From assembly GCA_029262065.1 (NCBI GenBank), contig JAJDAC010000007.1, positions 1 through 64,000 of the forward strand: a stretch of DNA of 64,000 nt. The letters are read 5' to 3'. The translations under genes were made by a program, and so were the position numbers. A model generated the notes under the pieces. That model worked only from the letters and a program-made list of their open reading frames with translations, was not told the DNA's origin and did no database searches. Of this stretch, positions 22,226 to 41,721 are shown in pieces. Each line of letters begins with the position of its first letter. Position 1 is the first letter of the stretch. Origin of the DNA: Candidatus Krumholzibacteriota bacterium (GTDB lineage Bacteria > Krumholzibacteriota > Krumholzibacteriia > JAJRXK01).

Positions 22226-22231
22226 GATCGA

Positions 22232-22708
22232 TCAGTGCCGCATGTCGCCCCAGGCCATCAATTGATCCCGAGCCCGCCCGACCGGAAGTTGCGCCGCACT
22301 ACTGACGACGCGAAGGGCGGTGGCCAGATCGACGAACGCCGGAAGCGTTTCGCCGTACCAGCCAGCCAGAGCCAATAGATTGGCCAGGTATGGCGTTAGA
22401 CCTACCCAAAGGGTCACGACGTCCAGCTCGCGCCAGCGTCGTTCGTATCCCATCAATTGTTCGATGGTGGAGATGGGAATGTGTTGAAGATGGGTTGCAT
22501 CGAGGATCACGTACTGCACCCCGTCATCCCCTTGGCGGGAATCACGAATGCGACGGTTGAGATCCTGAGCGCTGGACGAAGAAAGCCGTCCCGTCAACTT
22601 CACCTGGAACACGTCGGATGAACGCGCGACCAGCAAGAAGCCACCCCAGGCTTGGTGATCGGAACCCGAGAGTCCCTGACCAGCCGAATTTGAAGTGGAA
22701 TGCTGCAT
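22232..22708 (-). CDS. STAS-domain protein inside the dcw cluster
   Basis: A 158-residue protein counted from the ATG that gives MQHSTSNSAGQ; an upstream frame to 22837 would overlap mraZ and looks non-coding. Residues about 30-145 follow the STAS/anti-sigma-factor-antagonist pattern: FQVKLTGRLSSSSAQDL, then YVILDATHLQHIPISTIEQL, then LWVGLTPYLANLLALAG and a final helix FVDLATALRVV. The Ser/Thr of IPIST aligns with the phosphorylatable Ser of SpoIIAA-type proteins, though the usual Asp-Ser-Ser-Gly is not kept. A STAS gene between mraZ and rsmH is not part of the standard dcw order. Its partner, perhaps an anti-sigma kinase elsewhere, is unknown. Confidence 0.75.
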   Translation of the reverse strand: MQHSTSNSAGQGLSGSDHQAWGGFLLVARSSDVFQVKLTGRLSSSSAQDLNRRIRDSRQGDDGVQYVILDATHLQHIPISTIEQLMGYERRWRELDVVTLWVGLTPYLANLLALAGWYGETLPAFVDLATALRVVSSAAQLPVGRARDQLMAWGDMRH

Positions 22709-24898: not shown

Positions 24899-25875
24899 GC
24901 CCGCCGGTCCCACGCTTTTCGCCACCATCGAAGCGGCAAGGATTCCTGCAGTATCAACCACCGCACGATCGACTGGGTGCCCAGGAGCTTCTTGTAGTTG
25001 GCCACGCCCCGCAGGTCCATGCTGTTGCCCAGATTCAACATCGACTTGCCGTGCTCACTGGCGTACCGCGCTTCTTCACGAATCAAGAGCGAGGCCGGGA
25101 ACACCTGCGGGCGTCGCAACGTCGTACCCAACCAAGCGAAGAGTTGGTCCTTCAACTCGAAACACAGATGCCCGCCCACTATCTCACCGTCGAGCTGGAC
25201 CACGAAGAATCGACACGCCGCTTCCTGCTCGAGGATACTGCGCAGGAACTGGTATGACTCTGGACGCGAACCCCATTCGATCGCCTGATCGCGATATATC
25301 GCGTAGAAAGAATCGAAGTCGGCCAGATCGCCCGTGATGTGGACCGCCAAGCCGCGACGCTCGCTTCGGTTGCACTCGTTGCGACGGTTCTTGGGAAAAT
25401 GATCGCGAAGGAACTCCTCGAAATCACCGGGCGTGGGCAGGATCGCAGCGTCGATCTCGATCTTGAACCCGTCGGGAACGGCCGGCACTGAATCATTTCC
25501 CCAGACAAGTTCACGACGCACGGTGCGGGGTCCACCCACCTTCAAGAAGGCGGCAAACAAACTCGCCTCCACGTCGGATTGCCCACCCACGACCAGGGGA
25601 CCACCGTACGTTCCGGCTACGCCACTGGCCACGGCACCCAACCCACGGCGACGGCGCGTAACGAAAGGAAGCCCGCCCTTCAGCTCGCCGTTCGCCGATC
25701 GCGCCACGAGCAGGCCCACGTCGGTGGCCACGTGGTGATGCACGAATCGCTTATACCAATCCAACGCGTGAAAGGGAGTGGACCGAGGGTCGGCGTCGAC
25801 CAGCGCCTGCCATGCTCCGGGGTCCATATCGGCCCCACGAACCAGTTCAATGGGTTCGCTCGCCACGGCGCTCAC
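24895..25875 (-). CDS. FemAB/GNAT-fold protein of the glycan island
   Basis: Soluble protein of 326 residues with the pattern of FemAB-like tandem GNAT proteins. The N-terminal half has ALDWYKRFVHHHV and LPFVTRRRRGLGAVASG. The C-terminal half has DFEEFLRDHFPKNRRNECNR, FFVVQLDGEIVGGHLCFEL and a final LNLGNSMDLRGVANYKKLLG, the K(F)G-type ending typical of these enzymes. Homologues add amino acyl or acetyl groups to cell-surface glycans or peptidoglycan and occur often in exopolysaccharide clusters. The exact reaction is not predictable. The start is GTG, overlapping the stop of the dehydratase gene. Confidence 0.75.
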   Translation of the reverse strand: MSAVASEPIELVRGADMDPGAWQALVDADPRSTPFHALDWYKRFVHHHVATDVGLLVARSANGELKGGLPFVTRRRRGLGAVASGVAGTYGGPLVVGGQSDVEASLFAAFLKVGGPRTVRRELVWGNDSVPAVPDGFKIEIDAAILPTPGDFEEFLRDHFPKNRRNECNRSERRGLAVHITGDLADFDSFYAIYRDQAIEWGSRPESYQFLRSILEQEAACRFFVVQLDGEIVGGHLCFELKDQLFAWLGTTLRRPQVFPASLLIREEARYASEHGKSMLNLGNSMDLRGVANYKKLLGTQSIVRWLILQESLPLRWWRKAWDRRA

Positions 25876-27299
25876 TGTGACGTTCCGGCTTGGGCCTCGT
25901 GATCGGGAATCAACTCGATCAACCGGCGCCGGATGCCGTCTCTATCGCAGGCCTGCGCCAGTGCTCGGAGCGACTCGACCACATCGACCGGATCGAAACC
26001 GTCGGGCACGTTGGGTCGCGCCACGAGGATCTGGGGGTGGGGGCTGGCCACGGTTGGTTCGGTGTCGGCCAGGTAGCGTTCCTGGAGTTTCTCCCCCGGG
26101 CGCAACCCGGTTTCGATGATCTCGACCTCGTCGTCCTTGGCAAAGCCGGCGAAGGCGATGAGATCCTGCGCCAGTTCGTAGATGTTGATGGCTTCGCCCA
26201 TATCGAGCACGAACACCTCGCCGCCCTGGCCTTCGGCCATGGCTTGGATGACAAGCATCGCGGCTTCCTTGATGGTCATGAAATACCGGGTAGCATCGCG
26301 ATGTGTGACGGTAAGCGGCCCACCCCTTCGCAGCTGGCGTTGGAAGATGGGAACCACGCTTCCCCGACTACCCAACACGTTGCCAAAACGCACCGCGGTG
26401 AACGGAAGCTTCGATTCCAGGGCGGCCGACTGAACCAGGAACTCGGCGAGTCGCTTGGTCGCGCCCATTACATTGCGCGGCAGGACCGCCTTGTCGGTAC
26501 TGAGCATCACGAAGCGCGAGGCACCCACGTCGCGAGCGAACGCCAGTACGTTGGAAGTGCCGACCACGTTCACCATGACCGCCTCTTCGGGATACATCTC
26601 CATGAGCGGTACATGCTTGTGAGCGGCCGCATGAAGCACGACGTCGGGCCGAACCGTCGCGGCCAGGTGACGCAAGCGATCGCGATCACGGATATCGCCC
26701 AAAACGATCTGCGTTTCCTCGAAACCAAACGCGTCGCGTAATTCTTCTTCTATTTCGAACAGGCTGTTCTCGCCGCGCCCCAGGAGATACAACTTCGCGG
26801 GCCCGAATCCCGTAAGCAACCGGCACAACTCCGACCCGATCGACCCACCGGCCCCGGTCACCAGGACCTGCTTACCCGCCACCGCGGCCCGGATGGGGCC
26901 TTCGATCAAATCGACGGTCTGTCGGCCCAGAAGATCTTCCGGGGCTACATCGCGTACCTGATCGAGGTGCACGCTTCCCTTGATGATGTCGCGCAGGCCC
27001 GGCACGATTCGCACGGGAACGCGCACCCGCCGCGCCAGCGAGAGCACGCGCCGCGCGGCCGATCCAGGAGCCGAAGGGATGGCGACAATGATCTCATCGA
27101 CACGCTCGCGACGGGCAACACCGGCCACATCGGTCGATACCCCCACCACCGCGACGCCGTCGATCGAGGTTCCAACCAGGCTCGTATCGTCGTCGAGGAA
27201 CGCCACGACCTCGCGCTCGTATTCGGGACTCGCCCGCAATGCCCGTGCGATGTCACGCCCCGCCTCGCCCGCACCGATTACCAGGATTCGCCGCGTCAT
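25872..27299 (-). CDS. FlaA1/CapD-like nucleotide-sugar 4,6-dehydratase (soluble form)
   Basis: A 475-residue extended short-chain dehydrogenase. The N-terminal 120 residues form a Rossmann-like domain (LVIGAGEAGRDIARAL), and the catalytic domain begins VLVTGAGGSIGSELCR. The active site reads STDKAV (T268, D269, K270) with M278 and K282 in NVMGATKR: Met replaces the usual catalytic Tyr, as is typical of UDP-GlcNAc 4,6-dehydratases of the PglF/WbpM class. Unlike PglF and WbpM it has no N-terminal membrane helices. It probably makes a 4-keto-6-deoxy sugar for the island. The ATG overlaps the stop of the propeller gene, which lies just upstream on the minus strand. Confidence 0.85.
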   Translation of the reverse strand: MTRRILVIGAGEAGRDIARALRASPEYEREVVAFLDDDTSLVGTSIDGVAVVGVSTDVAGVARRERVDEIIVAIPSAPGSAARRVLSLARRVRVPVRIVPGLRDIIKGSVHLDQVRDVAPEDLLGRQTVDLIEGPIRAAVAGKQVLVTGAGGSIGSELCRLLTGFGPAKLYLLGRGENSLFEIEEELRDAFGFEETQIVLGDIRDRDRLRHLAATVRPDVVLHAAAHKHVPLMEMYPEEAVMVNVVGTSNVLAFARDVGASRFVMLSTDKAVLPRNVMGATKRLAEFLVQSAALESKLPFTAVRFGNVLGSRGSVVPIFQRQLRRGGPLTVTHRDATRYFMTIKEAAMLVIQAMAEGQGGEVFVLDMGEAINIYELAQDLIAFAGFAKDDEVEIIETGLRPGEKLQERYLADTEPTVASPHPQILVARPNVPDGFDPVDVVESLRALAQACDRDGIRRRLIELIPDHEAQAGTSQ

Positions 27300-29671
27300 C
27301 GTTCGATCGCCAGGACCCTGGTCGCGCTGAACCCATTCTGAATGAGGCGCACCAGATACAGACCGCTGGCGGCAAGCTCGTCGTTGAGGGTTCTGGTATC
27401 CCAGATTGAACCCTCGTCGGGTCGCACCATGGGGCGCGACACCATCAGAACGCCAGACAGGTTGTAGATTTCAACATCGGCCAGGCCCGTGAACCCCGTC
27501 ACGCGCAATCGCGTGGAGTCACCACGGTAGGGATTGGGGTACAACGAGAACTCGAGAGCCTCGGCCGGCGCCGGCGCAAGGGCGCCAATTGAAAGCACGG
27601 CCGCTCCCGTCTGGGTCGCCACCACCAAACGATTCGACGCAGGGTCGTAGGCCAACGTCTGTGCGTTGGAACCGGGCATGGGCGATATGAACTCGAAGTT
27701 GAGGTTGCGCGACTCAAACGCCACGAAGTCGGTCCAGCTGTCCACCCGCAGGTCTACCGCGTCTTCGACCACCCGGTTGAGGCCGGCGTCGGTAACCGCC
27801 CACAGATCGTTCGAGGAATCGAGCACCAGGTCGCGAACCTGGCCCGAGAGCAACGACGGACCAAACGATGTCTCGCGGACGCGCAGAATCTGGTCGGGGG
27901 TTCCGCCCACGTTATAGCGAAAACGCACCAGGCCACTGCCATTGCTGGCCGCCCAGATCAGACCGGTGTTGGTTACGGCCACGCCACGCGGGTCGGTCAG
28001 ATTCGTCCCACCCACATCGGTCAGCGTATCCCACCGCGCGCCTACCTGGAACGACGACTCGCGCTGGGACCCGGTCCCCTGAAAGCCATCGTGGAGGAAG
28101 CGCTGCACACCGCCCCCTGTGCCCGAGATCCACACCACCGTATCACCCTGGAAGTCGATTCCCTTGATCTCGTCGGAAGCCAACATGGAGTTACCCGTGG
28201 TCATCTTCAACCACGAGTTGGCGTCGAGTGGATTGTCCTGATCGAGCAGGATGTCGATGCCCTTGTCGATCACGAGATCCGCGCCGCCGCCGTTGTTGGC
28301 GAACCAGATGCGACCGTTGGAATCCTCGGACATCCGCAACACGCTGTTGGCGCGCAACAGGCCCTGTGCGGCATCGAAATCGAGATACTCAGCGAGCGCC
28401 GGATCATCGGAAGGATGCGGTCGCATTCGGGTGACGCCATTGCCCAGGTCAGACACCCAGACATCGCCGTTGCTGGCGCGCAGAACCGCGATCTTCGGAC
28501 CCGAGCTGCCCCATCCGATCCCGTCACCCTCATCCTGGAGGTTGTAGGCCACCAGTTCGCCGTCGGATCGCCAGTGCGTAAGGCCGCCGCGAATGGGAAA
28601 CGTGCCGATCCAGAAGCCGCCTTCACCATCGGGCGCGACACCGCGTGGACCGTCGCCGAACAAGCCACGGGCCGCGACCGGCTCGGCCAGGCCCTCTCGC
28701 CAAAGCATGGCGCGCGGGTCGTTTCGCATGGCCTGCGGATTCAGAAGGCTACCGCCGTACCAGACCTGGCCGTCGGGTCCCCCCACCACGGTCTGGAAGT
28801 CACGGTTCGTGGTATCCAACGCGAGCGTGGTCCAGGTCGTGGCGCCGTCGGGCAATCGAAACGCGCGACTGCCTTCGCCCAACGCAAGAATGTCATTGCC
28901 GAGTTCGCTGAGCGACAGAACTGGTTCGGCCAGCCCAGCCGCGGCCAGGATCCACGTTTCAGTATTGTCATCGAAGAGATAGACGTCGGTCGCGGTGGCC
29001 ACAAACACCCCTCGTGCCGTGGCGAGTATATCGCGCACCTGTCGATCGGGGGCGGCCGCCAGGCCGTCGTTACGGGTCACCAGGACGTTGCCCGCGCGGG
29101 AGAAGCTCGACACGCCGACCGGGGTGCCAAACCAGGCCACGCCATCGCGCGCGGCCACCGCCACCACGTTGTCGTCCACCAAACCATCTTCTTCGGTGAA
29201 CGTGGCCGCGGGCGAGCCCGAGGAGATGAACCCGGCGCCATCGGAAGTTCCGTAGTACACGAACTGCCCATCGGCCGAAACGGCGGTTACGTCCAGATCC
29301 ACCAGCTGTACGACCGAACGCACCGAGCGATCGGGGGCCATGCGCACGATGCCTCCGCCGCGCGTCGCGATCCACAGATCACCACCATCGTCGACGGCGA
29401 AACCCGATACCCGATTGCTGGTAAGTCCCTCGCGGGTTGTCACCGACTCCAGCGACAGCGCACCGGGGTCGAAGAAGAACAGGCCGCCGCCATCGTCGGC
29501 CGCGGCGATGAGATCGCCCCATACGGCGCTATCGCCGATGCCCTCCTGGGTTATCAGAACGTTCCAGGCCGCGGGGTCGCGCAGGTCGGCCATGGCCGCC
29601 CCGGAAAAGAGCAGCAGAGAAGTACAGGCGATCCATCCCAGGATGGCGCCAACATCGAATCGTTGAAGCAT
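27296..29671 (-). CDS. Secreted two-component-regulator-type beta-propeller protein with C-terminal sorting/FlgD-like domain
   Basis: A 791-residue exported protein. The chosen ATG gives a signal peptide (ILGWIACTSLLLFSGAAMA) and the longer upstream frame is shadow of the fusion gene. The body consists of many propeller repeats of the type GLTSNRVSGFAVDDGGDLWIAT and NGRIWFANNGGG. The last 85 residues (SLYPNPYRGDS, VEIYNLSGVLM, ASGLYLVRL) match the T9SS type A/FlgD-like C-terminal domain. There is no kinase domain, so it is a free-standing sensor-like or surface protein. Its place between a glycosyltransferase and a sugar dehydratase, with ATGA coupling to the latter, suggests a surface-glycan-linked role. 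Confidence 0.8.
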   Translation of the reverse strand: MLQRFDVGAILGWIACTSLLLFSGAAMADLRDPAAWNVLITQEGIGDSAVWGDLIAAADDGGGLFFFDPGALSLESVTTREGLTSNRVSGFAVDDGGDLWIATRGGGIVRMAPDRSVRSVVQLVDLDVTAVSADGQFVYYGTSDGAGFISSGSPAATFTEEDGLVDDNVVAVAARDGVAWFGTPVGVSSFSRAGNVLVTRNDGLAAAPDRQVRDILATARGVFVATATDVYLFDDNTETWILAAAGLAEPVLSLSELGNDILALGEGSRAFRLPDGATTWTTLALDTTNRDFQTVVGGPDGQVWYGGSLLNPQAMRNDPRAMLWREGLAEPVAARGLFGDGPRGVAPDGEGGFWIGTFPIRGGLTHWRSDGELVAYNLQDEGDGIGWGSSGPKIAVLRASNGDVWVSDLGNGVTRMRPHPSDDPALAEYLDFDAAQGLLRANSVLRMSEDSNGRIWFANNGGGADLVIDKGIDILLDQDNPLDANSWLKMTTGNSMLASDEIKGIDFQGDTVVWISGTGGGVQRFLHDGFQGTGSQRESSFQVGARWDTLTDVGGTNLTDPRGVAVTNTGLIWAASNGSGLVRFRYNVGGTPDQILRVRETSFGPSLLSGQVRDLVLDSSNDLWAVTDAGLNRVVEDAVDLRVDSWTDFVAFESRNLNFEFISPMPGSNAQTLAYDPASNRLVVATQTGAAVLSIGALAPAPAEALEFSLYPNPYRGDSTRLRVTGFTGLADVEIYNLSGVLMVSRPMVRPDEGSIWDTRTLNDELAASGLYLVRLIQNGFSATRVLAIER

Positions 29672-29679
29672 GAAACGGC

Positions 29680-31794
29680 TCACGAGGTGTTGGGGAAACG
29701 ATGCCAACGGTCGCGCCCGGCGATCAACTGGGGAAGCGATGACAGGAACAGATCCAGATCGAGCGTGGGTGACCATCGCTCGAGGTAGTCCATGTCGTCG
29801 TAGGTCAGCTGTCGCAAGGAACTGGTCGTCGTGTGGTGTTGCCACAGTCCACTGAGACCGGGTTTCACCGCGAACCTTAGCCGTTGGATAGGTCCCAGCT
29901 CCTCCTCGAAGCCAACTGGAAGCGGATACGGGCCCACGAGACTGAGACCGCCGCGTAGAACCTGCAGAAACAGGGGAAGCTGGATGAACCCCCAAAGCGG
30001 CCGATGCGAGCGCCGCCAGACGAGTTCGTGCCAACTCAGGTCTCGCCGGTTCTTCCCCAGCCTGTAAACCGGCCGCAGCTCGACAAGACCGAGCAATCGA
30101 CCCAGGGCAAAGCATACCACGAACCCCGGAAGGGACAAAAGGCTCAGCAAGAGACCCACCGGAGGATCGGCGATCCGCTTGAGCCAGGCCGTTTCCGAGC
30201 AGGCCGCGGGCGAAGGCACATACCACCAACCCACTCCGTGGGCATCGTGTCGACGACGGCTGGTGCCCATGAGCCCAATCCACGCATGGCTCACCAGCAC
30301 CCGGGTTCCAGCCACGGCCAGGATGCGGGCGGCGGCCAACCGGCGCTCGTCGGGTGGGTCATGCCCGTCGATCAGGATTTCGTCCACGTGGTATCGCTCG
30401 ACCACCTCGGCCAGATCGCCCAGGCCACCCAGGATCCGAGTCGGCGCATCGGTGTCACCCCGAGGAGGGTCGGGAACGTCGCCTCGTATCGCCCCAACCA
30501 CCGTGGCGCCCTGGGCCCCGGCCATGATTCCGCTCAGGCGCTCGATGCCCGCCACCGAACCCAACAACAGCGACCGGGTGGGACCACGCGTGCCGACGAT
30601 GCCATCGAGCCAGCGGGATCGCAACGCGCGTAGAACTTCCAGCCCCAGCAAGTACATGGGAACGAACAACAGCAGCACCGCGCGACTGAATGTCCTGGTG
30701 TGGGAAAGATAGGTCCCGGCCATGACGATCAACGCCACGAACAATGCCGCCCGCACCGCGCCAATCCAACGCGTCAGCCGTCGCGTGGGCGGCGGTTCGC
30801 GGTATCGACCCAGGAGCGGAAGCGCGATCCACGAGACCACGTTCGTGAACAACAGCAACGGAAGGTAATCGGAGAAACCAAAGAGTGGCTCGGGAAAGTA
30901 CTGATCGAGTGCGCTACGAAGAACGTAGGCCGCGACGAACGCCACGTTCAGCACGATGATGTCGCTGAGCACGGACGAGACCGTCTCCCACTTCGATCGC
31001 CAACGCTTGGCCACGTAGACCATTGCCCCCCACTTGTCGTAGAACGAAACGAAGCTGCGCAGGTGGTGAACCAACGACTTGCCCACGCGCCCGCTGCTGC
31101 GTTGGTGCTCGTGCACGAACTCCGCACCCGGGAAGTAGTGGACCTCGTACCCCTGCTCCCACATGCGGTAGCACCAGTCGACGTCTTCGAAGTAGAGAAA
31201 GAACCGACCGTCCATGGCACCCACGCGCTCGATTGCCTCGCGGCGCGCGAGCATGAAAGCGCCCGTGACCCAATCCACCGGCCGCGGCGATTCCAGATCG
31301 TCGTCCAGCATGAGGTGGCTGCGTAGCGCGGGATGATCCGGGTAGCGGCGACCCAACGGCGTGCGGCGCAGCAATATGGTGGACAGGTTGTAGAAGCGAC
31401 GTGCGCTCCGCTGCAACGTTCCGTCGGCGTTGAGCAACCGCGCGCCGACGATGCCCGCCTCGGGGTGTTGGTCCAGGTACTCGAGGGCTTCATCAACGCC
31501 GCCGGCCGACAACACCACATCGGGATTGATGACCAGGATCGCCGCGCCCCGTGCGCACTCGATGGCAGCGTTCACCGCGCGCGCGTATCCCACGTTGGTG
31601 CCCATCGGCAACACGCGAACCGTGGGCCACTCGGCGGCTAGCCAATCGGCTACGCCGTCGTCGCCCGCGTTGTCCACCAGGAGCACTTCGTGCGAGGCCG
31701 CAATCGGGTACTCGCGCAGGCTCGCGAAGAACCGCTGCAACGGCTCGCCGCTGTGGTAATTCACTAGAACCAGGCTGACCTGGATCGATTCCAA
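29680..31794 (-). CDS. GT2 glycosyltransferase fused to a degenerate polyprenyl glycosylphosphotransferase
   Basis: A 704-residue fusion. Residues 1-255 are a rhamnosyltransferase-like GT2 domain (LVLVNYHSG, LLVDNAGDDG, LVINPDVVLS, FLYFEDVDWCYR). Residues about 272-395 hold four membrane helices and 405-515 a Rossmann-like module, the usual N-terminal half of WcaJ/WbaP-class enzymes. Residues 535-695 are the PGT domain (LKRIADPPVG, LSLVGPYPLP, KPGLSGLWQ). The catalytic Asp-Glu of the DELPQ motif is replaced by I604-Q605 and the KFRSM segment is missing, so the PGT part should not transfer phospho-sugar. The start is TTG with a good Shine-Dalgarno (AGGGAG, 6 bases). Confidence 0.85.
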   Translation of the reverse strand: MESIQVSLVLVNYHSGEPLQRFFASLREYPIAASHEVLLVDNAGDDGVADWLAAEWPTVRVLPMGTNVGYARAVNAAIECARGAAILVINPDVVLSAGGVDEALEYLDQHPEAGIVGARLLNADGTLQRSARRFYNLSTILLRRTPLGRRYPDHPALRSHLMLDDDLESPRPVDWVTGAFMLARREAIERVGAMDGRFFLYFEDVDWCYRMWEQGYEVHYFPGAEFVHEHQRSSGRVGKSLVHHLRSFVSFYDKWGAMVYVAKRWRSKWETVSSVLSDIIVLNVAFVAAYVLRSALDQYFPEPLFGFSDYLPLLLFTNVVSWIALPLLGRYREPPPTRRLTRWIGAVRAALFVALIVMAGTYLSHTRTFSRAVLLLFVPMYLLGLEVLRALRSRWLDGIVGTRGPTRSLLLGSVAGIERLSGIMAGAQGATVVGAIRGDVPDPPRGDTDAPTRILGGLGDLAEVVERYHVDEILIDGHDPPDERRLAAARILAVAGTRVLVSHAWIGLMGTSRRRHDAHGVGWWYVPSPAACSETAWLKRIADPPVGLLLSLLSLPGFVVCFALGRLLGLVELRPVYRLGKNRRDLSWHELVWRRSHRPLWGFIQLPLFLQVLRGGLSLVGPYPLPVGFEEELGPIQRLRFAVKPGLSGLWQHHTTTSSLRQLTYDDMDYLERWSPTLDLDLFLSSLPQLIAGRDRWHRFPNTS

Positions 31795-31806
31795 ACTGCG
31801 CTCCCT

Positions 31807-32514
31807 CTACGACCCCGAAGTGAACCGAAGTCGCCACACCATCCAGGTCGCCTCCCAGATGATTCGGCGGGACATCTTGCTTTCACCAATCACACGATCG
31901 GTAAAGATGATGGGAATCTCCTTCACCCGAAGCCCACGCTTCCACGCGAGGTAGTTCAACTCGATCTGGAACCCGTAGCCGTCGCTACGAACGCGGTCCA
32001 GCGGCAATGCGGCCAGGGTCGCCCGCCGGAAACACTTGTAACCGCCCGTACAATCCTTGAGCGGAAGACCCGTCACCTTGCTGGCGTAGATGTTTGCGCC
32101 CACCGACAGAAAGAGTCGTGACAATGGCCAGTTGATGACAGTGATGCCGTGCAGGTAGCGGCTGCCCACCACCAGGTCGGCCTCCTGGATGTGTTTGAGG
32201 AATTCCGGAATGGAACCGGGATCGTGGGAAAAGTCCGCGTCCATCTCGAACACGTACTCCGCGTCGGTATTCTCCAGCGCCCACTTGAAGCCCGCGATAT
32301 AGGCGGAGCCCAGACCCTGCTTCCCCTGGCGATGAATCACATGGATCCGGTCGTTGGCCGCCATCATTTCGTCCACCTTGGCGCCGGTTCCATCTGGACT
32401 GTTGTCGTCCACGACCAGCACGTGGATATCGTCGTCCTGCTGTAGCACGACAGGTACGATGCGCTGAATGTTGTTCAGCTCGTCGTAGGTGGGAATGACT
32501 ACCAGCGCCTTCAA
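31807..32514 (-). CDS. Polyprenyl-phosphate mannose synthase-like GT2 (DPM1 type)
   Basis: A 235-residue soluble GT2 of the dolichol-phosphate mannosyltransferase subgroup. It has VVIPTYDELNNI, LVVDDNSPDGTG, the metal-binding EMDADFSHDP, VVGSRYLHG and DCTGGYKCFRR. Family members transfer mannose (sometimes glucose) from the nucleotide sugar to polyprenyl phosphate at the inner face of the membrane, making the donor used by GT-C enzymes. It has no membrane tail. The start is TTG, overlapping the YfhO gene stop as TTGA. GDP-mannose genes lie at 61244-63672. Confidence 0.88.
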   Translation of the reverse strand: MKALVVIPTYDELNNIQRIVPVVLQQDDDIHVLVVDDNSPDGTGAKVDEMMAANDRIHVIHRQGKQGLGSAYIAGFKWALENTDAEYVFEMDADFSHDPGSIPEFLKHIQEADLVVGSRYLHGITVINWPLSRLFLSVGANIYASKVTGLPLKDCTGGYKCFRRATLAALPLDRVRSDGYGFQIELNYLAWKRGLRVKEIPIIFTDRVIGESKMSRRIIWEATWMVWRLRFTSGS

Positions 32515-35054
32515 GTTACCTTCCCTTCAGAACCCGAACGCCGAAACAAAGCGCCCAACAAACTCGCGAGCAGGCCCAGCCCAATGATGGCTCCGCTGGC
32601 CACACTGATCGACCGGCCACGCTGGAAACTGTCGGAGCGGAACTCGAATCGTACCGCATGTTGGCCGGCGTCCAGAGCGACGGCCCGCAAAGCGTAGTTG
32701 GCCCGCAGCAGGTCAGCCGGCCGGCCGTTCACGGTTACGGCCCAACCGGGATAGTAGATGTCGGCCATGACGAGGACTCCAGGCTGCGTCAGGTCGGCTT
32801 CGACCTCCACCCAATTGTAACCCTCATCTACCACGCGAGCCGAGCCGCGCGTTCCGCTGGCCGGCGCGGGCTGCGGTGAAGCCGATAATATGGCCGTGGA
32901 ACGCAGGTCGAACCCCGGCGCCGCGACGCGCGTCAACACCGACTCATCGGGGCGCTGCGAGGTCGTATCGTGCCCCATTCTTTCCTGTTCGATCCGCCCG
33001 ACCACCCAGGCCCGGGGCTGGGCGGTATGATTTCGGTACACCACGCCATCGCCGCCCCGGAACACCGGTGCCTGCCCCAGGTCCAGGCCCGTCTGGGCCA
33101 GACCGGTCAACGTGCCCACGTCAAACTCGCTGGGAGCTGACACGTACTCCACCGCCAGCAGGTTCACCAGCCCCACCGAGGGGCGCTCGGTATAGATTCG
33201 GGACCGCAGGTCCTCGAAAAGCTTCAGTTTGGCCGCATGGTATCCGCCCAGGCTCACGATCTCCTGGCCCGCGAATAGATTGGTGGAAGATCCCTCTTGG
33301 CCCAGTGGCCACACCCGCGACCTCTCGCCCTGGCTGCGAATCCACTCGGTAACATCGTTGCCCGCCACGAACTCCCGCACCGCGGATTCGTCGCGAATCA
33401 GACTGCCGTACGGAGCGGTGACGATTCTTCCGCCCTGTTGCACCGGAGCCACGAGATGTTGATCCGGATGTATGATGCCATCGCTCACACGGTGGTAGTC
33501 GAAGAACGTCAGCAGGGCGACGGCGGCGGTAAGAGCCAGTGCGGGAACACGCCGTTGCCCCCACGCCGCGACCAACCCCGACCCCACCAGGATGATGCAG
33601 CCCACGCGTACGGCGTCGGCTTTGGCCATCTCGGCAACGGGAATCATGACCACGGCTGGAACGGTGCCACGCATCCCGGTCCACTTGGCCAACGAACCGT
33701 CGACCAGGGAAGAACCAAACACCGTGCCCGCCGCCAGGAACCCCGCACCAACCAAGCCGACCCCGATCAACAAGGGCGACGAGAACCACACAGGGCGGTC
33801 TTCATCGTTCACGGTAGCCACCAGACGGTCGAGTCCCGCGGCCGCGAGGGCCACCAACGCGAACTGCTGTAGCGCCAGGATCATCACCGGCACCCTGAAC
33901 TTGCTGAAGCCCGGCAGCAGTTGGTAGAAAAGGTCATAGACGAAAGAGTGCTTTCCCATGGACACCGCGGTGGCCAGGAGCGCAAGCGAGGCCAGGCAGT
34001 AGCTCCACCGATCCCGGCGCAACACCACCGCCAACAGCGCCAGTAGGAGCACGGGCAGCCCCACGTAGTTGGGAAAGTCGGTAAATGGCATTCCACCCAC
34101 GTAGCTGGATTTGCCATAGCCAACCGCGGTGGGCCACCAGAACGTCTCGACCTCCGAGGGCGACAATGACCAATTGGTCGCGTAGTCGTAGGCGGCCGAC
34201 CTGCCCTGTTCGCTCGTACCCGCGCCCGAACCCGCGGCGCGAATCGAGTGCGACTGATACTCCAGGACCGGCATGTACAACACCATGGACGCGCCCAGGG
34301 CGAGCACGGCCGCCACCGCGATCATGGCGACGCGTCGCAACGCCCGCGCGCGATGTTCACGCAGCAACGGAACGCCAAAGAACATGGCCCACAGAAACAT
34401 GGCGATTACCGTGTAGTAGGCAATCTGCACATGACTACGCAATAGCTGCATCCCCACCGCGAACGCCAGTCCGAACACGTACACCCAACGACCGCGGCGC
34501 AATACGCCTTCGATACACCAAAGTGCAAGTGGCATCCAGGCCAACGTGCCCAGCTTCGTCCCGTGCCCGTAGACCGACCACGAAACCACGTTGGGCATGG
34601 CCATGAGCAAAGCTCCGGCCATCATGGCGGCTACCAGTGCCACGCCGCGCCACCTCAGGTAGGCGGCCAACGTGACACCCATGATGAACAGGTGGAACAG
34701 CATCCACGTCATGGGCGGCAAACCCAGGGTGCCAGTGAGCCAGCGAAGCGGAGCCGTCAGCGGATATACGTCGGGCGTGTAGGCCAGGCTGGCGTACGAC
34801 GGCATGCCCATGAATACGAACGGGTTCCAGAGGGGGTACTCGCCTTGCTGCCGCGCGGCATCGCCCAGGTGTTTGAACACGGCCGCCGACTGCATGTCGC
34901 TGCTGGTGTAGATCTTCCCCTCTACCAGTAGCGCTGGGTGCAGGAAAGCCAACGCCACCAGCATGACCACCGCCACCAGCGCCAACTCAACCCAGGCCGA
35001 ACGGGCGCTCCGGGGGACTTCATCCGAATGCTGTATCAAGCCGAGTCCTTTCAC
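32511..35054 (-). CDS. YfhO family membrane protein (GT-C-like)
   Basis: An 847-residue polytopic membrane protein with about 13 helices in the first 560 residues, then a large extracytoplasmic domain and a final helix near 815-835. The first loop after helix 1 carries TSSDMQSAAVFKHLGDAARQ and the stretch PLWNPFVFMGMPSYAS, both typical of YfhO proteins, which are GT-C-like enzymes that add sugars from polyprenyl carriers to surface polymers. The start is GTG at 35054; an in-frame TTG at 35039 has a better placed AGGA and is an alternative. It is coupled to the DPM1-like gene, its likely donor-making partner. Confidence 0.85.
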   Translation of the reverse strand: MKGLGLIQHSDEVPRSARSAWVELALVAVVMLVALAFLHPALLVEGKIYTSSDMQSAAVFKHLGDAARQQGEYPLWNPFVFMGMPSYASLAYTPDVYPLTAPLRWLTGTLGLPPMTWMLFHLFIMGVTLAAYLRWRGVALVAAMMAGALLMAMPNVVSWSVYGHGTKLGTLAWMPLALWCIEGVLRRGRWVYVFGLAFAVGMQLLRSHVQIAYYTVIAMFLWAMFFGVPLLREHRARALRRVAMIAVAAVLALGASMVLYMPVLEYQSHSIRAAGSGAGTSEQGRSAAYDYATNWSLSPSEVETFWWPTAVGYGKSSYVGGMPFTDFPNYVGLPVLLLALLAVVLRRDRWSYCLASLALLATAVSMGKHSFVYDLFYQLLPGFSKFRVPVMILALQQFALVALAAAGLDRLVATVNDEDRPVWFSSPLLIGVGLVGAGFLAAGTVFGSSLVDGSLAKWTGMRGTVPAVVMIPVAEMAKADAVRVGCIILVGSGLVAAWGQRRVPALALTAAVALLTFFDYHRVSDGIIHPDQHLVAPVQQGGRIVTAPYGSLIRDESAVREFVAGNDVTEWIRSQGERSRVWPLGQEGSSTNLFAGQEIVSLGGYHAAKLKLFEDLRSRIYTERPSVGLVNLLAVEYVSAPSEFDVGTLTGLAQTGLDLGQAPVFRGGDGVVYRNHTAQPRAWVVGRIEQERMGHDTTSQRPDESVLTRVAAPGFDLRSTAILSASPQPAPASGTRGSARVVDEGYNWVEVEADLTQPGVLVMADIYYPGWAVTVNGRPADLLRANYALRAVALDAGQHAVRFEFRSDSFQRGRSISVASGAIIGLGLLASLLGALFRRSGSEGKVT

Positions 35055-35080
35055 GAGCTTGCGACCCTACCATGGCCACC

Positions 35081-35989
35081 TCACACGAGGTACCGATTGG
35101 AGCCGGTGAGCGAATCCAGCCACGAATGAATCAACGCGCGCGCCGCGCCTCCATGCCCTCTGGCGACCAGCCAACCCAGTGTGGCCAGTTCCTGCCCGAC
35201 CAGGCCCACGACAAGAGTCGGCCAGTGCCAGGGCTTCGCATGGCGTAGTAACAACTGTCGACGGGCCCGGCTCTGGTGGTACGTCTTGAACGGTGCCCAG
35301 GCTCCGCCCACCGTCGAACTCACCGCGTGATCCACGCGAGCGGCGGGAACGTAGCGTGCACCCCAGCCCGCCGCGTGAGCCCGTAGGCAGAAGTCGACAT
35401 CCTCGGAGTATATATAGAAAGATGGATCCAGGCCGCGCAGGCTTTTCCAGACCGTGCTTCGCACGGCCAAGCAGCACCCGGTGACCCAATCCGTGGCCCC
35501 CGCCGGATCATGGCGATCGTCGGCCGGCCGCCGGATAGCTCGGTGCCTCACCACGCCCCACCACCGATGGAATATCCCTCCGCCGTACCAGATCACGTTG
35601 GCGGGGCGCTCAAAGCAGATGCGCGGGCCGGCGATGCCCAAGCGCGGGGCGTCGTCCAGGGCTTTGGCCAAATGACGCAGCGCATCGGCGGAAACGGTAG
35701 CATCGTTGTTCAGCAACACCACCACGTCGGCTCCCAGCTCCAGCAATCGTTCGCACCCACGGTTGTTGCCCTCGGCGAATCGCAGATTGGTGTCGTTGCA
35801 CACCAGATCCACCTGGGGCCATCGGTCACGCAGATGCTCCACGCTACCATCGGTGCTGGCATTATCGACGACCACGAGAACAAAATCGGGATGATCGGAC
35901 GCGAGCACGCTGGCGATGCAGTCGTCGAGCAGATCGCGGCCGTTCCAGTTCAACACGACCACGCCTAGTCGAGGCAGCGGCACAGCCAT
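35081..35989 (-). CDS. GT2 glycosyltransferase (WbbL/rhamnosyltransferase type)
   Basis: A 302-residue GT2 enzyme. Motifs are VVVLNWNGRDLLDDC, LVVVDNASTDGS, the metal-binding region VVLLNNDATVS, TDWVTGCCLAVR and FYIYSEDVDFCLRA, the pattern of family 2 rhamnosyl- and related transferases that extend O-antigen-like chains. A C-terminal hydrophobic stretch (LVVGLVGQELATLGWLVA) suggests membrane association. The sugar transferred cannot be told from sequence. The ATG lies 5 bases after the stop of the next upstream gene. Confidence 0.85.
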   Translation of the reverse strand: MAVPLPRLGVVVLNWNGRDLLDDCIASVLASDHPDFVLVVVDNASTDGSVEHLRDRWPQVDLVCNDTNLRFAEGNNRGCERLLELGADVVVLLNNDATVSADALRHLAKALDDAPRLGIAGPRICFERPANVIWYGGGIFHRWWGVVRHRAIRRPADDRHDPAGATDWVTGCCLAVRSTVWKSLRGLDPSFYIYSEDVDFCLRAHAAGWGARYVPAARVDHAVSSTVGGAWAPFKTYHQSRARRQLLLRHAKPWHWPTLVVGLVGQELATLGWLVARGHGGAARALIHSWLDSLTGSNRYLV

Positions 35990-35994
35990 GACCG

Positions 35995-36969
35995 TCAGTC
36001 CTCGTGGCGAATCCGGTAGTGGGTCGTCGTGTCCTTGGAAGCAACCAACAGTTCGGCCACCAGTCCCAGGCTCACGAATTGGATGGCCACCAACAGGAAG
36101 GCGACCCCCATGAGCATGATCGGGCGCACGCGAAGGCCCGCGCCACCAATCCAGATCACCAGGAAATAGGCGCAGATAAGGCTACCCAACACGCCGAACA
36201 CGAGTGCGATGCGGCCAAAGAAGTGCAGCGGCGACGTGCGCTGGCGGGTAAGGAACAATACGGTCATCAAGTCGAACATGCCGTTCAGGAAGCGGTTGCG
36301 ACCAAACTTGGTTTCGCCGAAACGACGCGCCTCGTGCCGAACGCTGATCTCACCGACGCGAAAGCCCATGACATGCGCCAATACGGGAAGGTAGCGGTGC
36401 ATCTCCCCGTATACCTGAAGCGACCGGGCCACCTCCTGGCGATAGGCCTTCAGCCCGCAGTTGAAATCGTGCAGATCCAGGCCGCTGGCCATGCGGGTCA
36501 CCGCGTTGAACACCTTGCTGGTACTCGTCTTTATCAGGGGATCCTTGCGGTCGAACTTCCAGCCGCTGACCAGATCGTAGCCTTCGTCCAATTTGTCGAG
36601 CAAGGCCCCGATCTCGGCGGGGTCGTCCTGCAGGTCCGCGTCCATGGTGACCACCACGTTGCCCCGCGCGCGCTGGAAACCCACCGCCAACGCGGCCGAC
36701 TTGCCGTAGTTGCGCTGGAACGTCACACGACGCAGCTGCTCGCAACGCGTGCGAACTTCTTCGGCTACCCGGGTCGTTTCATCGGTGGAGCCGTCATCGA
36801 TCAGTAGGATTTCGTAGGCCGAGGTAACGCCATCGAGCGCCTCGACGATTCGGTCGATTAGCTCGGGCAGGCTTTCGGCTTCATTGAACGCCGGCACCAG
36901 GACCGTGAGATCCAGTTCGCCAGGGCCTTCGAACACCGGGCGTTGATGGGTTTGAGGCAACGTGGTCAC
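35995..36969 (-). CDS. GtrB/ArnC-like polyprenyl-phosphate glycosyltransferase (GT2 with two C-terminal membrane helices)
   Basis: About 324 residues. The N-terminal GT2 domain has LVPAFNEAESLPELI, LLIDDGSTDET, TMDADLQDDPAEI and DLHDFNCGLKAYR. Two C-terminal helices (ALVFGVLGSLICAYFLVIW and MGVAFLLVAIQFVSLGLV) are arranged as in GtrB and DPMS. Such proteins load a sugar on undecaprenyl phosphate. The GTG at 36969 overlaps the epimerase stop as GTGA and is preferred to the ATG at 36996. With the gene at 31807 this is the second polyprenyl-sugar synthase of the island. Confidence 0.88.
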   Translation of the reverse strand: MTTLPQTHQRPVFEGPGELDLTVLVPAFNEAESLPELIDRIVEALDGVTSAYEILLIDDGSTDETTRVAEEVRTRCEQLRRVTFQRNYGKSAALAVGFQRARGNVVVTMDADLQDDPAEIGALLDKLDEGYDLVSGWKFDRKDPLIKTSTSKVFNAVTRMASGLDLHDFNCGLKAYRQEVARSLQVYGEMHRYLPVLAHVMGFRVGEISVRHEARRFGETKFGRNRFLNGMFDLMTVLFLTRQRTSPLHFFGRIALVFGVLGSLICAYFLVIWIGGAGLRVRPIMLMGVAFLLVAIQFVSLGLVAELLVASKDTTTHYRIRHED

Positions 36970-37982
36970 GCCGCGGGTTCCCCCCGCATGTTCCATCGCA
37001 CCTGGGCGTCCAGGCCATCTTCCAGGGAAACGCCCGCCGCGAACCCCAGCTCATCACGCGCCAGCTGTCCGTCCGCGTAGGTATGGATTACGTCACCCTC
37101 GACGCGATCGCCGTATTCGATCTGGATGTCGTCGGCCAGCCCGTGGGCCACGGCCCGATCGCGCAGAATGGCCAGCGCGTCTCGCAGGGCAATGCGGCTG
37201 CCTCCACCCACGTTGTATACGGCTCCGCGACGGGGCGAATCGGCCGCCAACAGATTGGCCCGCAACGCGTCGGCCACGAACGTGAAGTCGCGCGTCTGAC
37301 TGCCATCGCCATAGATCTTCCACGGCTGGCCGGCGCGCGCCGCCTCCAGAAACTTCTGGAACGCCATGTCGGGCCGCTGACGCGGACCGTACACCGTAAA
37401 GTATCGCAGGCTGGTCGTCCGCAGACCGAAGTTCTCGGCGTACAGACCGCAAAGATGCTCGGCGGCCAGCTTCGTGACCCCGTAGGGACTGAACGGCTGC
37501 AAGTAGGATGTCTCGACCACCGGGTACGTGGGCTGATTGCCGTACACCGAACTGGAACTGCTGTACACCAGACAACGCGACTCACCGTCGGCCCGATCGA
37601 GTTGAAGCATGGCTTCCAGCAGGTTCTGCGTCGCGCGGATGTTGTAGGCCAGGTAGATGTCGAATTCGCGTCCCCACGATGCACGAACACCAGCCTGCGC
37701 CGCCATGTGGAAACACACCTGCCGATCGGCGAGCACGTCGCTCAGATCCAGATCATTCAGGTCGGCTTCGAGCAGTCGAAAACCCGGGTTCAACAACGCG
37801 TCAGATAGATTCCTGCGTTTACGCGCGGGGTCGTAGTAGTCAGTGAAACAATCAACGCCCACGACGTCGTGGCCGCCGGCCAGCAAAGCGTCCGTGAGCG
37901 AACTGCCCAGGAATCCGCCGCACCCAGTTACCAGTACACGACGCGGCGACGAACGCCACGCCGACGGAAGCTCTACGGTCAA
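36966..37982 (-). CDS. NAD-dependent nucleotide-sugar epimerase/dehydratase
   Basis: Extended SDR enzyme of 338 residues. It has the NAD loop TGCGGFLGSSL (20-29), SSSSSVYG (about 141-148) and catalytic Y167 and K171 in SPYGVTKLAAEHL. The segment GVRASWGREFDIYLAYN resembles UDP-glucuronate and UDP-glucose 4-epimerases of capsule clusters. It supplies a nucleotide sugar to the transferases around it; which one is not certain. The start is TTG, overlapping the DUF2723 gene stop as TTGA. Confidence 0.87.
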   Translation of the reverse strand: MTVELPSAWRSSPRRVLVTGCGGFLGSSLTDALLAGGHDVVGVDCFTDYYDPARKRRNLSDALLNPGFRLLEADLNDLDLSDVLADRQVCFHMAAQAGVRASWGREFDIYLAYNIRATQNLLEAMLQLDRADGESRCLVYSSSSSVYGNQPTYPVVETSYLQPFSPYGVTKLAAEHLCGLYAENFGLRTTSLRYFTVYGPRQRPDMAFQKFLEAARAGQPWKIYGDGSQTRDFTFVADALRANLLAADSPRRGAVYNVGGGSRIALRDALAILRDRAVAHGLADDIQIEYGDRVEGDVIHTYADGQLARDELGFAAGVSLEDGLDAQVRWNMRGEPAA

Positions 37983-40663
37983 CGATCCTCCTCGGGCACT
38001 TCGTCTTCCGGCGGCGGCGTGGGCGTGGGCTCGTCAACCGCCTCGTCGTCGAACGCACCCTCCTCACGCATCTTCCGGAAGGCACGAAGTTCGTTTTCGG
38101 CATCGAGGCGCGACTGCGGGTCACTGGCGCGCTCCACCCAGTCCTGCAGTATGCCCTCGGCCGTATCGTACTCTTGCTTGAACAGATGAGCGCGGAACAG
38201 CAATTCAATGTAGAGCGGTTCATCTTCGTCGGTGGCAAAGACCTCCTTGGCCCAATCCAGGGCCAGGTCGTCTTTTCGCAACGTAAACAGGTCTTCGCCC
38301 AACTGCGCCGCCATGGGCGCTGGATCGGCCAGCGATTTCACGAGCCTACGCCCGGCGTCCAACGCATCTTCGGGTCGGCCCGCCTGCAGGTAGATCTTGG
38401 GCAGCAGGTCCCCCACCACCGGAAACGTAGGGTCCATGCGATACGCCATTTCCGCACCTTCGAGCGCGAAATCGAAATTGTTGGCCAACGCTTCGAAGTA
38501 GCCGATGCGGCACAGAGCGGCCGGGTAGTTTCGCAACAGGTGACGCGAGTTGTGGTCTCGGTACACCGACCTGTCGATCATACCCTCGTCGTCGAGCATC
38601 CCGTCCAGGTCGTACACCTGCGTGAAGTTGTGCCAGATCTTGTCGGTATTCACGAACGGAAGGTCTTCGTCGGGATTGCGATTCGGCGTGAGTCGGTAGG
38701 CCAGACCCTCCATGGACATATATGGCACGAAGTCGCCGATGTTCTCGTTGGGTATGGTCACCGCGAAATAGATGTCCCGCTCCCAATTGTTCTCCCGAAC
38801 GATGTGCCACACCGTCATGTCACGCACGTAGAGAATCGACCCGTCATTGAACTGCACGGCCTGCAGCAGACCGCGGTAGTTGCGGTACTGGATGTCAGCT
38901 TCGCCCTGGATTTGTTCGTCGGACCAATTGATGGGGACCGACGGCTCGTAGTCGCGCAGCTGCTTGATATACCAGGGCAGATTGATCAAGCTCAGGTTCA
39001 CGACGCGAACGTCGCGACGGAACCCCTCCACTTCCTGCATGTACCACAGCGGAAAGGTATCGTTGTCACCGTTGGTGAAGATGATGGCGTTCTCGGAAAG
39101 ACCCGCCAGCAGGTTGTAGCCGTAGTCACGAGCCAACGTGTTGTTGTGGTAATTGTGCTGAAACCATTTGGGGTGACCATGCTCGCCACCTACGTTGGCC
39201 ATGAGAACCGGAAGCGTGGGCAACAGGAGCAACACTCCCGCCCACGTTGCCATGACCGGGCGACGAAGGTTGCTGCCCTTCAGCGCGAACCAACCCTCAC
39301 GCAACAGTCCACCGGCTCCCAATCCCAGGAAAAGCGCGGCGAACTGGAACGCCGCGAAATAGAAGTAGTCGCGATCACGCACTTCGTGATCGGTGAAGTT
39401 CAAGAGGATCATCAGACCCAGGGAGTTGATGAGCAGGGTGGTCAGGAAGCCCGAGAACAGGCGCCAGTTCCCGCGCAACTGGCAGTACAACCCGTACAAC
39501 CACAACGCCAGCGGCAACACGCGGTCGAACCACCCCGGGTTGGGCAGAAACGTAAACTGCTGCAGGTAACCCACCGCGCGGTTGCCCGCCAACGACGTAC
39601 CCTCGCCCCATACGCTCGTACCCCACAGGTGACCCAGCTGCCACCATATGGGCGCCTCGCGAACGGCCATATCGCGCGGCGGATACTGCTCGCGTCGCAG
39701 GACGGTCATCAGGCGATCGAACGTTTCGGGGTCGGTCTGGTTCACCATGGGATCCTGTCCCGCGCGAACCATCATGACCAGATGGACCGATAGGCCCAGG
39801 AAGAACAACGCAATACCGGCCAACGAGAACCAGGCACCGTGCGCGTGTTCGTCCTTGCTGCCCCAGGTCATGAGACGCCACAGCCCCAGGAGCGTGGCAC
39901 CCACCAGACAGGCAATGACAAACGCGTCGTGCGTGAACAACTCCATGATTCCGCGACTGCCGGTGTACCGCTCGGGCCCACGCATGGTGGACAGCACGAA
40001 AGCACCCATGGCTACGGCGACGATGAGAATGTCGATATTGCGCAGCGCTTTTCGATCGGCCAACAGGATGATGAGAACGGCGCCCGGAAACGCCAACACC
40101 GCACCCAGATGAAAGCCCACGGCCAGACCCATGAGATAGATGATCAGCAACATGAGCGTGGCCGAAGACTCGGTTTCGCGAACCTCCCACCAGCGCACCG
40201 ACAGGTACGCCGTGAACGCCAGGGTGAACGAAGCCAGGCTGTAGACCTCGGCTTCGATCGAGTTGGTCCAGAAGGTGGTGCTGAACGCCAGGAACAGGGC
40301 ACCGATGGCCGCGCCGGCTTTCACCAACCAAAGCGGCGTCGGCTCTTCACGGTGCTGCTCCCAATCGCAGTGGAGCCGCACCCCGGTCAGATAGGTCATG
40401 GCCACGGCCAAGGCGCCAAAGAACGCGCTCATGAGATTGATCTGGTAGGCAAACGAGATTCCCAACGGGATCAACCCGAACACCCGGCCCACCAGTACGA
40501 ACAGCGGCGTGCCCGGCTGGTGCGGAATGCCCAGCGTGTACGCCGTGGTGACGAACTCGCCACAGTCCCAGAAATTGATCGTGGGTGATGCCGTAGCCGC
40601 GTAGACCGCGAAGCTCACGACGAACAGCGCCAGGGCGACCAAACGGTTGGAATCTCTCAACAT
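37979..40663 (-). CDS. DUF2723 (TMEM260-like) GT-C membrane protein with TPR-like C-terminus
   Basis: An 894-residue polytopic membrane protein; the ATG at 40663 is preceded by AGGAG at good spacing and the long upstream frame is shadow. The N-terminus has TINFWDCGEFVTTAYTLG and HQPGTPLFVLVGRVF, the DUF2723 signature with the acidic GT-C motif. About twelve helices run to residue 510. A soluble extracytoplasmic part follows, with TNGDNDTFPLWYMQEVEG, then TPR-like helices (FALEGAEMAYRMDPTFP) and an acidic Pro-rich tail. The human DUF2723 homologue TMEM260 is a protein O-mannosyltransferase, so a mannose-type transfer from a polyprenyl carrier is a reasonable hypothesis. Confidence 0.85.
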   Translation of the reverse strand: MLRDSNRLVALALFVVSFAVYAATASPTINFWDCGEFVTTAYTLGIPHQPGTPLFVLVGRVFGLIPLGISFAYQINLMSAFFGALAVAMTYLTGVRLHCDWEQHREEPTPLWLVKAGAAIGALFLAFSTTFWTNSIEAEVYSLASFTLAFTAYLSVRWWEVRETESSATLMLLIIYLMGLAVGFHLGAVLAFPGAVLIILLADRKALRNIDILIVAVAMGAFVLSTMRGPERYTGSRGIMELFTHDAFVIACLVGATLLGLWRLMTWGSKDEHAHGAWFSLAGIALFFLGLSVHLVMMVRAGQDPMVNQTDPETFDRLMTVLRREQYPPRDMAVREAPIWWQLGHLWGTSVWGEGTSLAGNRAVGYLQQFTFLPNPGWFDRVLPLALWLYGLYCQLRGNWRLFSGFLTTLLINSLGLMILLNFTDHEVRDRDYFYFAAFQFAALFLGLGAGGLLREGWFALKGSNLRRPVMATWAGVLLLLPTLPVLMANVGGEHGHPKWFQHNYHNNTLARDYGYNLLAGLSENAIIFTNGDNDTFPLWYMQEVEGFRRDVRVVNLSLINLPWYIKQLRDYEPSVPINWSDEQIQGEADIQYRNYRGLLQAVQFNDGSILYVRDMTVWHIVRENNWERDIYFAVTIPNENIGDFVPYMSMEGLAYRLTPNRNPDEDLPFVNTDKIWHNFTQVYDLDGMLDDEGMIDRSVYRDHNSRHLLRNYPAALCRIGYFEALANNFDFALEGAEMAYRMDPTFPVVGDLLPKIYLQAGRPEDALDAGRRLVKSLADPAPMAAQLGEDLFTLRKDDLALDWAKEVFATDEDEPLYIELLFRAHLFKQEYDTAEGILQDWVERASDPQSRLDAENELRAFRKMREEGAFDDEAVDEPTPTPPPEDEVPEEDR

Positions 40664-40722
40664 CCAGCTCCTGCCTTCCTCGGCGGGCACCTTAGCACAG
40701 GCCCCGCCCGGCGGCGACGCGT

Positions 40723-41721
40723 CTAAGCCGTTGGCTCTGAATTGGTTCGAACTTTTCCGCCACGGCGACCTCGCAACATCTTCCAGGCAAAGATCAGCCC
40801 CCCGACGAGGCTCACCGCGACCTGGACCAGGAAGGTGGCCAACTCCATGACGAATGCCTCGCCGGCCCCGATACCGATGTTGGGCAGGAGACGGGTGGCG
40901 ACCCACTCCCGAAGCCCCAGACCGTTGAACGAGATGGGCAGGACAATGGCCACGCCCAGGGCCGGAACGAGAACGAAGAGTTCCTGCATACGCAAAAACC
41001 CCAGAGAGATTCCCAATTTCCACGCCACCAGCAGGTGGGTGGCCACGCGCAGCGACTGCACCAGCAGGGCCAGCAGGAACACGCGAGCCACAAAAGCCGG
41101 ATCCACGCGGAATCCGACCATCTCGTCCACCAACGCTCGCAGCCGCCCACGCGCACGACCGCGCGTCAAGCGATCGGCCAGGTCCGCGCCCCAGTGGCCG
41201 GCGCGGCGAGACAGGATCGCGGCGGTTCCGCCCAACACCGGCAACGCCACGACCAGCAACATCCACCAAGGAACCCCGGCCGGGGTGGGCCCGCCAAGGG
41301 TGACCGCGGCCACCAACGCCAGGGTGACCAGGGCCGACAGCCCCATGAGCCGGTCCAATAGCGTAGCCGCCACCGGCCGCGCCAACGTTCCCGTCTCCAG
41401 GGCCACGTCGGTCACCTTGACCAGATCGCCGCCGACGTTGGTGGGCAGGAAATTGTTGAAGAACAGACCCACCCAGTACGTGGCCTGCAGCCGACGCGGC
41501 GATACCGAAACGCCGGCGTGACGCATGAGCAGCGTCCATTGATAGGCGCCCAGTACCGAACTCAGGGCAAAGACCACGGCCGCGGGCCAGAGGGTTATCA
41601 GACGAAGCTCACCCAGTTGCGGCAATTCGCCGCGCAGGCGCGTGACGAGCCACAGCAACAACGCCAGGCTCACCGCCACGCGAAGCACAAACCACACCCT
41701 GGATCGAACGCGGGGGTTCAT
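40723..41721 (-). CDS. UPF0104/LPG-synthase-TM-like membrane protein
   Basis: A 332-residue protein with about eight membrane helices. It carries the family pattern YWVGLFFNNFLPTNVGGDLVK and ATLLDRLMGLSALVTLALV, and near the C-terminus PISFNGLGLREW, characteristic of the lysylphosphatidylglycerol synthase transmembrane (UPF0104) family. Members move or flip lipids, often lipid-linked sugars, in glycan clusters; a flippase-like role is inferred from context. The ATG at 41721 overlaps the stop of the GT4 gene as ATGA. Confidence 0.8.
   Translation of the reverse strand: MNPRVRSRVWFVLRVAVSLALLLWLVTRLRGELPQLGELRLITLWPAAVVFALSSVLGAYQWTLLMRHAGVSVSPRRLQATYWVGLFFNNFLPTNVGGDLVKVTDVALETGTLARPVAATLLDRLMGLSALVTLALVAAVTLGGPTPAGVPWWMLLVVALPVLGGTAAILSRRAGHWGADLADRLTRGRARGRLRALVDEMVGFRVDPAFVARVFLLALLVQSLRVATHLLVAWKLGISLGFLRMQELFVLVPALGVAIVLPISFNGLGLREWVATRLLPNIGIGAGEAFVMELATFLVQVAVSLVGGLIFAWKMLRGRRGGKVRTNSEPTA

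Follow-up and report, generated by a model that had tools for sequence, protein, structure and literature searches.

A GT2 glycosyltransferase fused to a predicted pseudo-phosphoglycosyltransferase in Candidatus Krumholzibacteriota and four other phyla

We report that a gene in a 64,000-nucleotide stretch of Candidatus Krumholzibacteriota DNA (contig JAJDAC010000007.1, positions 1 to 64,000; the window) joins a GT2 glycosyltransferase domain to a large phosphoglycosyltransferase (PGT) whose core appears, by every residue tested, to be catalytically dead. The family of the window protein is a pseudoenzyme branch of the large-PGT fusions, and sequence comparison establishes its dead core, its conserved GT2 residues, its wide conservation, the existence of an intact sister lineage and the conservation of the operon in which it lies. 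Wherever monotopic PGTs occur they are annotated as active initiators, yet here the PGT half is predicted to be dead, a warning that these fusion genes are not to be annotated as initiating sugar-phosphate transferases. Literature searches returned no pseudo-PGT and no account of this fusion, although a mention in the PNAS paper on the monoPGT network is possible.

The fusion gene and its PGT core

The fusion gene has GGGAG upstream of its start codon, and its parts lie as follows.

29680..31794, minus strand: GT2::pseudo-large-PGT fusion gene, 704 aa in one frame, TTG start
31087..31794, minus strand: GT2 domain, aa 1-236, from profile match and residue conservation
30589..31011, minus strand: four-helix membrane bundle, aa 262-402, from the AF2 model
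30217..30588, minus strand: Rossmann-like module, aa 403-526, counterpart of the large-PGT DUF PF13727
29719..30213, minus strand: pseudo-PGT core, aa 528-692, with about 24 residues (KFRSM...DPR) deleted
29980..29985, minus strand: codons of I604-Q605, where intact PGTs have the Asp-Glu dyad, from the alignment

Pfam places the GT2 match (PF00535) at residues 7-234 (E 1.7e-15), a sub-threshold match to CoA_binding_3 (PF13727) at 338-475, and a Bac_transf match (PF02397) at 606-689 that scores 51.6 bits against a cut-off of 27 but spans only profile positions 91-176 of 179, the C-terminal half. NCBIfam gives EPS_sugtrans and WcaJ-type matches, both under their cut-offs. An AF2 model built from 60 orthologues (pLDDT 89.4) puts long membrane helices at 266-295, 307-327, 339-363 and 371-400, between the GT2 and a Rossmann-like region at 406-501 that is followed by the PGT core. 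The coordinates, strand and order of parts proposed in an earlier sequence-only reading are right. When the whole model was compared with the PDB by Foldseek, WbaP (8t53) ranked first (E 2.3e-13). Folded alone, the pseudo-core reached a pLDDT of 92.7 and matched, at E<0.001, only PglC (8g1n/8e37, TM 0.70) and WbaP (8t53, 0.71). As modelled, the window core keeps the PGT fold and has lost PGT chemistry.

The loss of chemistry was read from an alignment of 33 intact PGTs of the same phylum with 60 full-length fusion orthologues of Candidatus Krumholzibacteriota. The dyad columns hold D and E in 33/33 intact PGTs each and in 0/60 fusions each. In the window fusion, the D and E of DELPQ are replaced by I604 and Q605, as the sequence-only reading had it; its two closest relatives (54-56% identical) read V-Q there, and the E column across all 60 holds Q in 33, K in 17, N in 8, and A and S in 1 each. 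The KFRSM segment, also noted earlier as missing, is gapped in 60/60 fusions, as is the Asp of DPR, and the R of GPRP has become Y in the window fusion. In 53 of the 60 fusions RxG and LVGP are 39 residues apart, compared with 62-94, mostly 63, in the intact PGTs. Every catalytic motif group tested is missing together from the window core. What the core keeps, in nearly all orthologues, is PG(L/I)TGxW and two glycines of the GxxSLVG region; its helix 534-567, a candidate re-entrant membrane helix, has a near-invariant Arg540 at its start and a mid-helix Pro.

The GT2 half looks active, judging from its motifs. The catalytic Asp/Glu motifs of PF00535 are present in the window protein, and across 74 fusions of seven lineages P91, D92, E203, D206, D41 and H228 are identical in all 74, while D204 is kept in 73 and replaced by E in one distant member (L146).

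Distribution and evolutionary history

The window protein has a match in 75 of 80 Candidatus Krumholzibacteriota genomes (E <= 1e-20), a count that includes GT2-only matches in some incomplete genomes. The fusion also occurs in five further phyla, labelled here B to F: 18/20 genomes of B, 5/5 of C, 6/8 of E, 6/7 of F and 4/4 of D. Scanning genome contigs with the single window protein returned no relatives, and a linker alignment returned 17; a tblastn search of plasmids gave GT2-only matches, none spanning 80% of the query. The search for homologues with the same fusion and the same dyad loss, proposed from the sequence alone, succeeded in 60/60 orthologues of the phylum and in four more phyla: no readable core of B, C, E or F has a complete dyad, and two B-lineage members keep the Asp at the dyad position.

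Phylum D is different. Three of its four fusions (L145, L147 and L148) have KFRSM, DPR and DELPQ intact and, on these residues, probably combine an initiator with a second transferase. The fourth (L150) reads LDLLPQ, with the Asp kept, the Glu lost and the loop shortened. The family spans, therefore, a range from a probable bifunctional enzyme to a GT2 with a pseudo-PGT. Fusion homologues with an intact DELPQ had been named as evidence that would count against the proposed dyad loss; they exist, but in a separate sister phylum with what is probably the ancestral form, and they leave the loss standing. Another GT2::large-PGT fusion with an intact dyad (L146) is more distant and perhaps of separate origin.

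To place these states in order, we used a tree built from the GT2, membrane and Rossmann parts, leaving the PGT core out. Phylum D is sister to all the dead lineages on this tree (SH-aLRT 91), whose root is provisional because the single outgroup is long-branched. The observed states need no more than two losses, on the stem leading to the dead clade and in L150, and we infer a single-loss history for the dead lineages. The deletion scars in the core vary between phyla, which suggests either that erosion went on after an old loss or that there were several losses. The intact form in phylum D is the probable picture of the ancestor, a bifunctional initiator and second transferase. Together, the five phyla with a syntenic, near-universal dead-PGT fusion and the sister phylum, in which intact and half-dead intermediate forms both occur, make a natural series in which the role of the non-catalytic parts of large PGTs can be studied.

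The surrounding operon

The fusion lies in an operon of about nine genes (25872-41539 in the window) that is conserved across Krumholzibacteriota. Besides the fusion, its members in the window are the following.

37979..41539, minus strand: TMEM260-like O-mannosyltransferase-family membrane protein
36966..37982, minus strand: NAD-dependent sugar epimerase/dehydratase
35995..36996, minus strand: GtrB/ArnC-like polyprenyl-P-sugar synthase
35081..35989, minus strand: second WbbL-like GT2
32511..35054, minus strand: YfhO-like membrane protein, a conserved operon member
31807..32514, minus strand: DPM-synthase-like GT2, 235 aa, immediate upstream neighbour of the fusion in every PGT-dead lineage
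27296..29671, minus strand: beta-propeller protein with a T9SS type A sorting domain, PorZ model match under cut-off
25872..27299, minus strand: CapD/PglF-like UDP-sugar 4,6-dehydratase

The usual order is TMEM260-like, epimerase, GtrB-like GT2, GT2, YfhO, DPM-like, fusion, propeller and CapD-like. The fusion sits between the DPM-synthase-like and propeller genes at each of the 12 Krumholzibacteriota loci examined, which come from seven families. In the window, mraW and a division transpeptidase (about 18900-22300) adjoin the CapD-like gene.

The propeller protein gives a lead to the T9SS. PorZ consists of two propellers and a CTD and delivers A-LPS to PorU (PMC8545088). In the propeller protein of the window the type A sorting domain scores over its cut-off, and all 80 genomes of the phylum have PorU-type sortase matches, 54 of them over cut-off. 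We did not adopt an identification of the propeller as PorZ, as that match is sub-threshold only and phmmer against the PDB returned propellers of two-component type rather than PorZ. Gene context alone hints at a link between the operon and the synthesis of a T9SS anchor glycan resembling A-LPS. Should the PorZ-like neighbour prove informative, the operon would point to unknown T9SS anchor-glycan genes outside Bacteroidota.

The genome of the window also encodes intact stand-alone PGTs. One intact large PGT (G000:C7:73071-73616, outside the window) lies on the same contig about 41 kb from the fusion, and a similar spacing, 41-49 kb, is seen in G002, G007, G042, G044 and G064.

Role of the retained core and relation to known systems

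The explanation that we favour, and hold to be probable, is that the window protein is a membrane-anchored GT2 descended from a bifunctional enzyme, with the dead core kept as a membrane module. In the ancestor, the C-terminal large PGT would have loaded the first sugar-phosphate onto undecaprenyl phosphate (UndP) and the fused GT2 would have added the second sugar, all within one polypeptide. On the way to Krumholzibacteriota and the four other dead phyla, the core would then have shed the dyad, the residues that bind Mg and phosphate, and some of the active-site loop, with the GT2 staying active throughout. Still folded and in the membrane, the dead core would hold the GT2 in place and set its orientation, and with the four-helix bundle and Rossmann module it may take part in assembling a dimer. 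The lipid-linked acceptor would now be made by a different protein, a stand-alone PGT or the DPM-synthase-like enzyme encoded next door. For the window fusion, we infer GT2 activity, the substrates, the scaffold role and the source of the acceptor from these comparisons.

It is unlikely, though worth weighing, that the core is instead a passive relic or plain membrane anchor that is slowly eroding, the GT2 and four-helix bundle being sufficient. Among close pairs, dN/dS (Nei-Gojobori, with dS close to saturation in some pairs) is 0.15-0.47 for the PGT core and 0.04-0.23 for the GT2, which indicates purifying selection that is relaxed in the core, two to four times looser than in the GT2. The orthologous gene of G007 (L077, about 9845-11371), a relative in the same family as the window genome, ends after the Rossmann module and has no PGT core; no more than about 250 bases separate it from the propeller gene behind it, and there is neither an N nor a contig end at this place. 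The dead core can therefore be lost in evolution, and the cores of family f6 are very divergent and barely recognisable, so that in some lineages the core may do nothing essential. Erosion is also in keeping with the scars that differ between phyla. Against a mere relic, however, dN/dS is well under 1, the 39-residue spacing is held exactly in most orthologues, the PG(L/I)TGxW motif and both glycines persist, and full length is kept in 60 sequences of one phylum.

A broader proposal, which we regard as improbable, extends the membrane module to a whole machine: the pseudo-PGT family, deep-branching and spread over several phyla, would be the membrane platform of a conserved assembly (DPM-like, YfhO, GT2-pseudo-PGT, PorZ-like and CapD-like proteins) that builds the lipid-linked glycan anchoring T9SS cargo, with the dead initiator organising the complex and marking a switch from PGT-primed to DPM-primed synthesis.

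Such a switch can also be proposed by itself. The DPM-like neighbour would have taken over initiation by making Und-P-hexose for the GT2 to extend, so that assembly moved from a UndPP-linked to a UndP-linked route. The closest solved relative of the DPM-like protein is dolichol-phosphate mannose synthase (E 4e-28), and its gene is directly upstream of the fusion at 108 loci of the dead lineages, or 98 genomes after duplicates are removed, the exceptions being two cases at a contig end and one gene truncated at its N terminus. In the five genomes with intact or half-intact fusions (those of phylum D and G227, which carries L146), it adjoins the fusion in none. Homologues 51-53% identical are nevertheless found elsewhere in four of these five, so that the contrast is one of linkage and not of gene content, and the idea that the gene was gained when the PGT died is weakened. 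The adjoining YfhO is moreover an equally good user of a Und-P-sugar, and we consider a takeover of initiation by this neighbour quite improbable.

The sequence-only reading had described the PGT half as a membrane or UndP-sugar-binding scaffold that places the GT2 on its lipid-linked acceptor. Its membrane part agrees with the dead PGT half, the apparently active GT2 and the retained folded domain; its binding part fares poorly. A docking site in which UndP- or UndPP-sugar is still bound and offered to the GT2 would fit the retained PGT fold and N-terminal membrane helix, and in the intact relatives the PGT product would be the natural acceptor of the fused GT2. The columns that we take to be those of PglC Arg88 and Arg145, placed through the DELPQ and VNGR motifs, hold Arg in 33/33 and 32/33 intact PGTs. 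In the fusions, by contrast, E, V or P usually stands in the Arg88 column, with no Arg in the window protein, and the Arg145 column has Arg in only 9 of 60, the window protein not among them. Arg88 and Arg145 of PglC bind the UndP phosphate, and simulations and mutants tie them to UndP binding (PMC10519829). Because the phosphate-binding arginines are lost, along with the KFRSM loop, in the window protein and most relatives, and with the core absent altogether from G007, docking by the dead core is disfavoured and, to us, very doubtful.

It is scarcely credible that the dyad loss is an artefact of frameshift or mis-assembly in residues 585-610, a refutation once envisaged but now excluded by the absence of both dyad residues from 60/60 orthologues in independent genomes, 53 with the identical deletion spacing, or that the PGT remains active through other residues, for which only the lone Asp in the two B-lineage members speaks and against which all tested catalytic motif groups are gone together.

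The window protein can be set beside several known systems. Large PGTs comprise a four-helix bundle, a PF13727 DUF and a PGT core (PMC10942596), and the fusion has this layout of four TM helices, PF13727-type module and core with an extra GT2 in front. The order of these parts is identical in WbaP (8t53) and WcaJ (TIGR03023), which have the dyad, KFRSM and DPR that the window protein is without. The small PGT PglC (8g1n, 8e37) shares the core fold (TM 0.70), but its catalytic and UndP-phosphate-binding residues are all missing from the window protein. WbbL-type rhamnosyltransferases (TIGR01556) share the GT2 fold and its NPD and EDxD motifs; these enzymes stand alone, whereas the window GT2 is fused and scores under the curated TIGR01556 cut-off. 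Finally, the Bi-PGT class consists of bifunctional monoPGTs in which the PGT core is fused to another functional domain (PMC10942596). L145, L147 and L148 fit this class, and the window protein shares its fusion of a PGT core to another functional domain; unlike the class, it is predicted from its residues to be incapable of the PGT step, with only its GT2 half equipped for catalysis.
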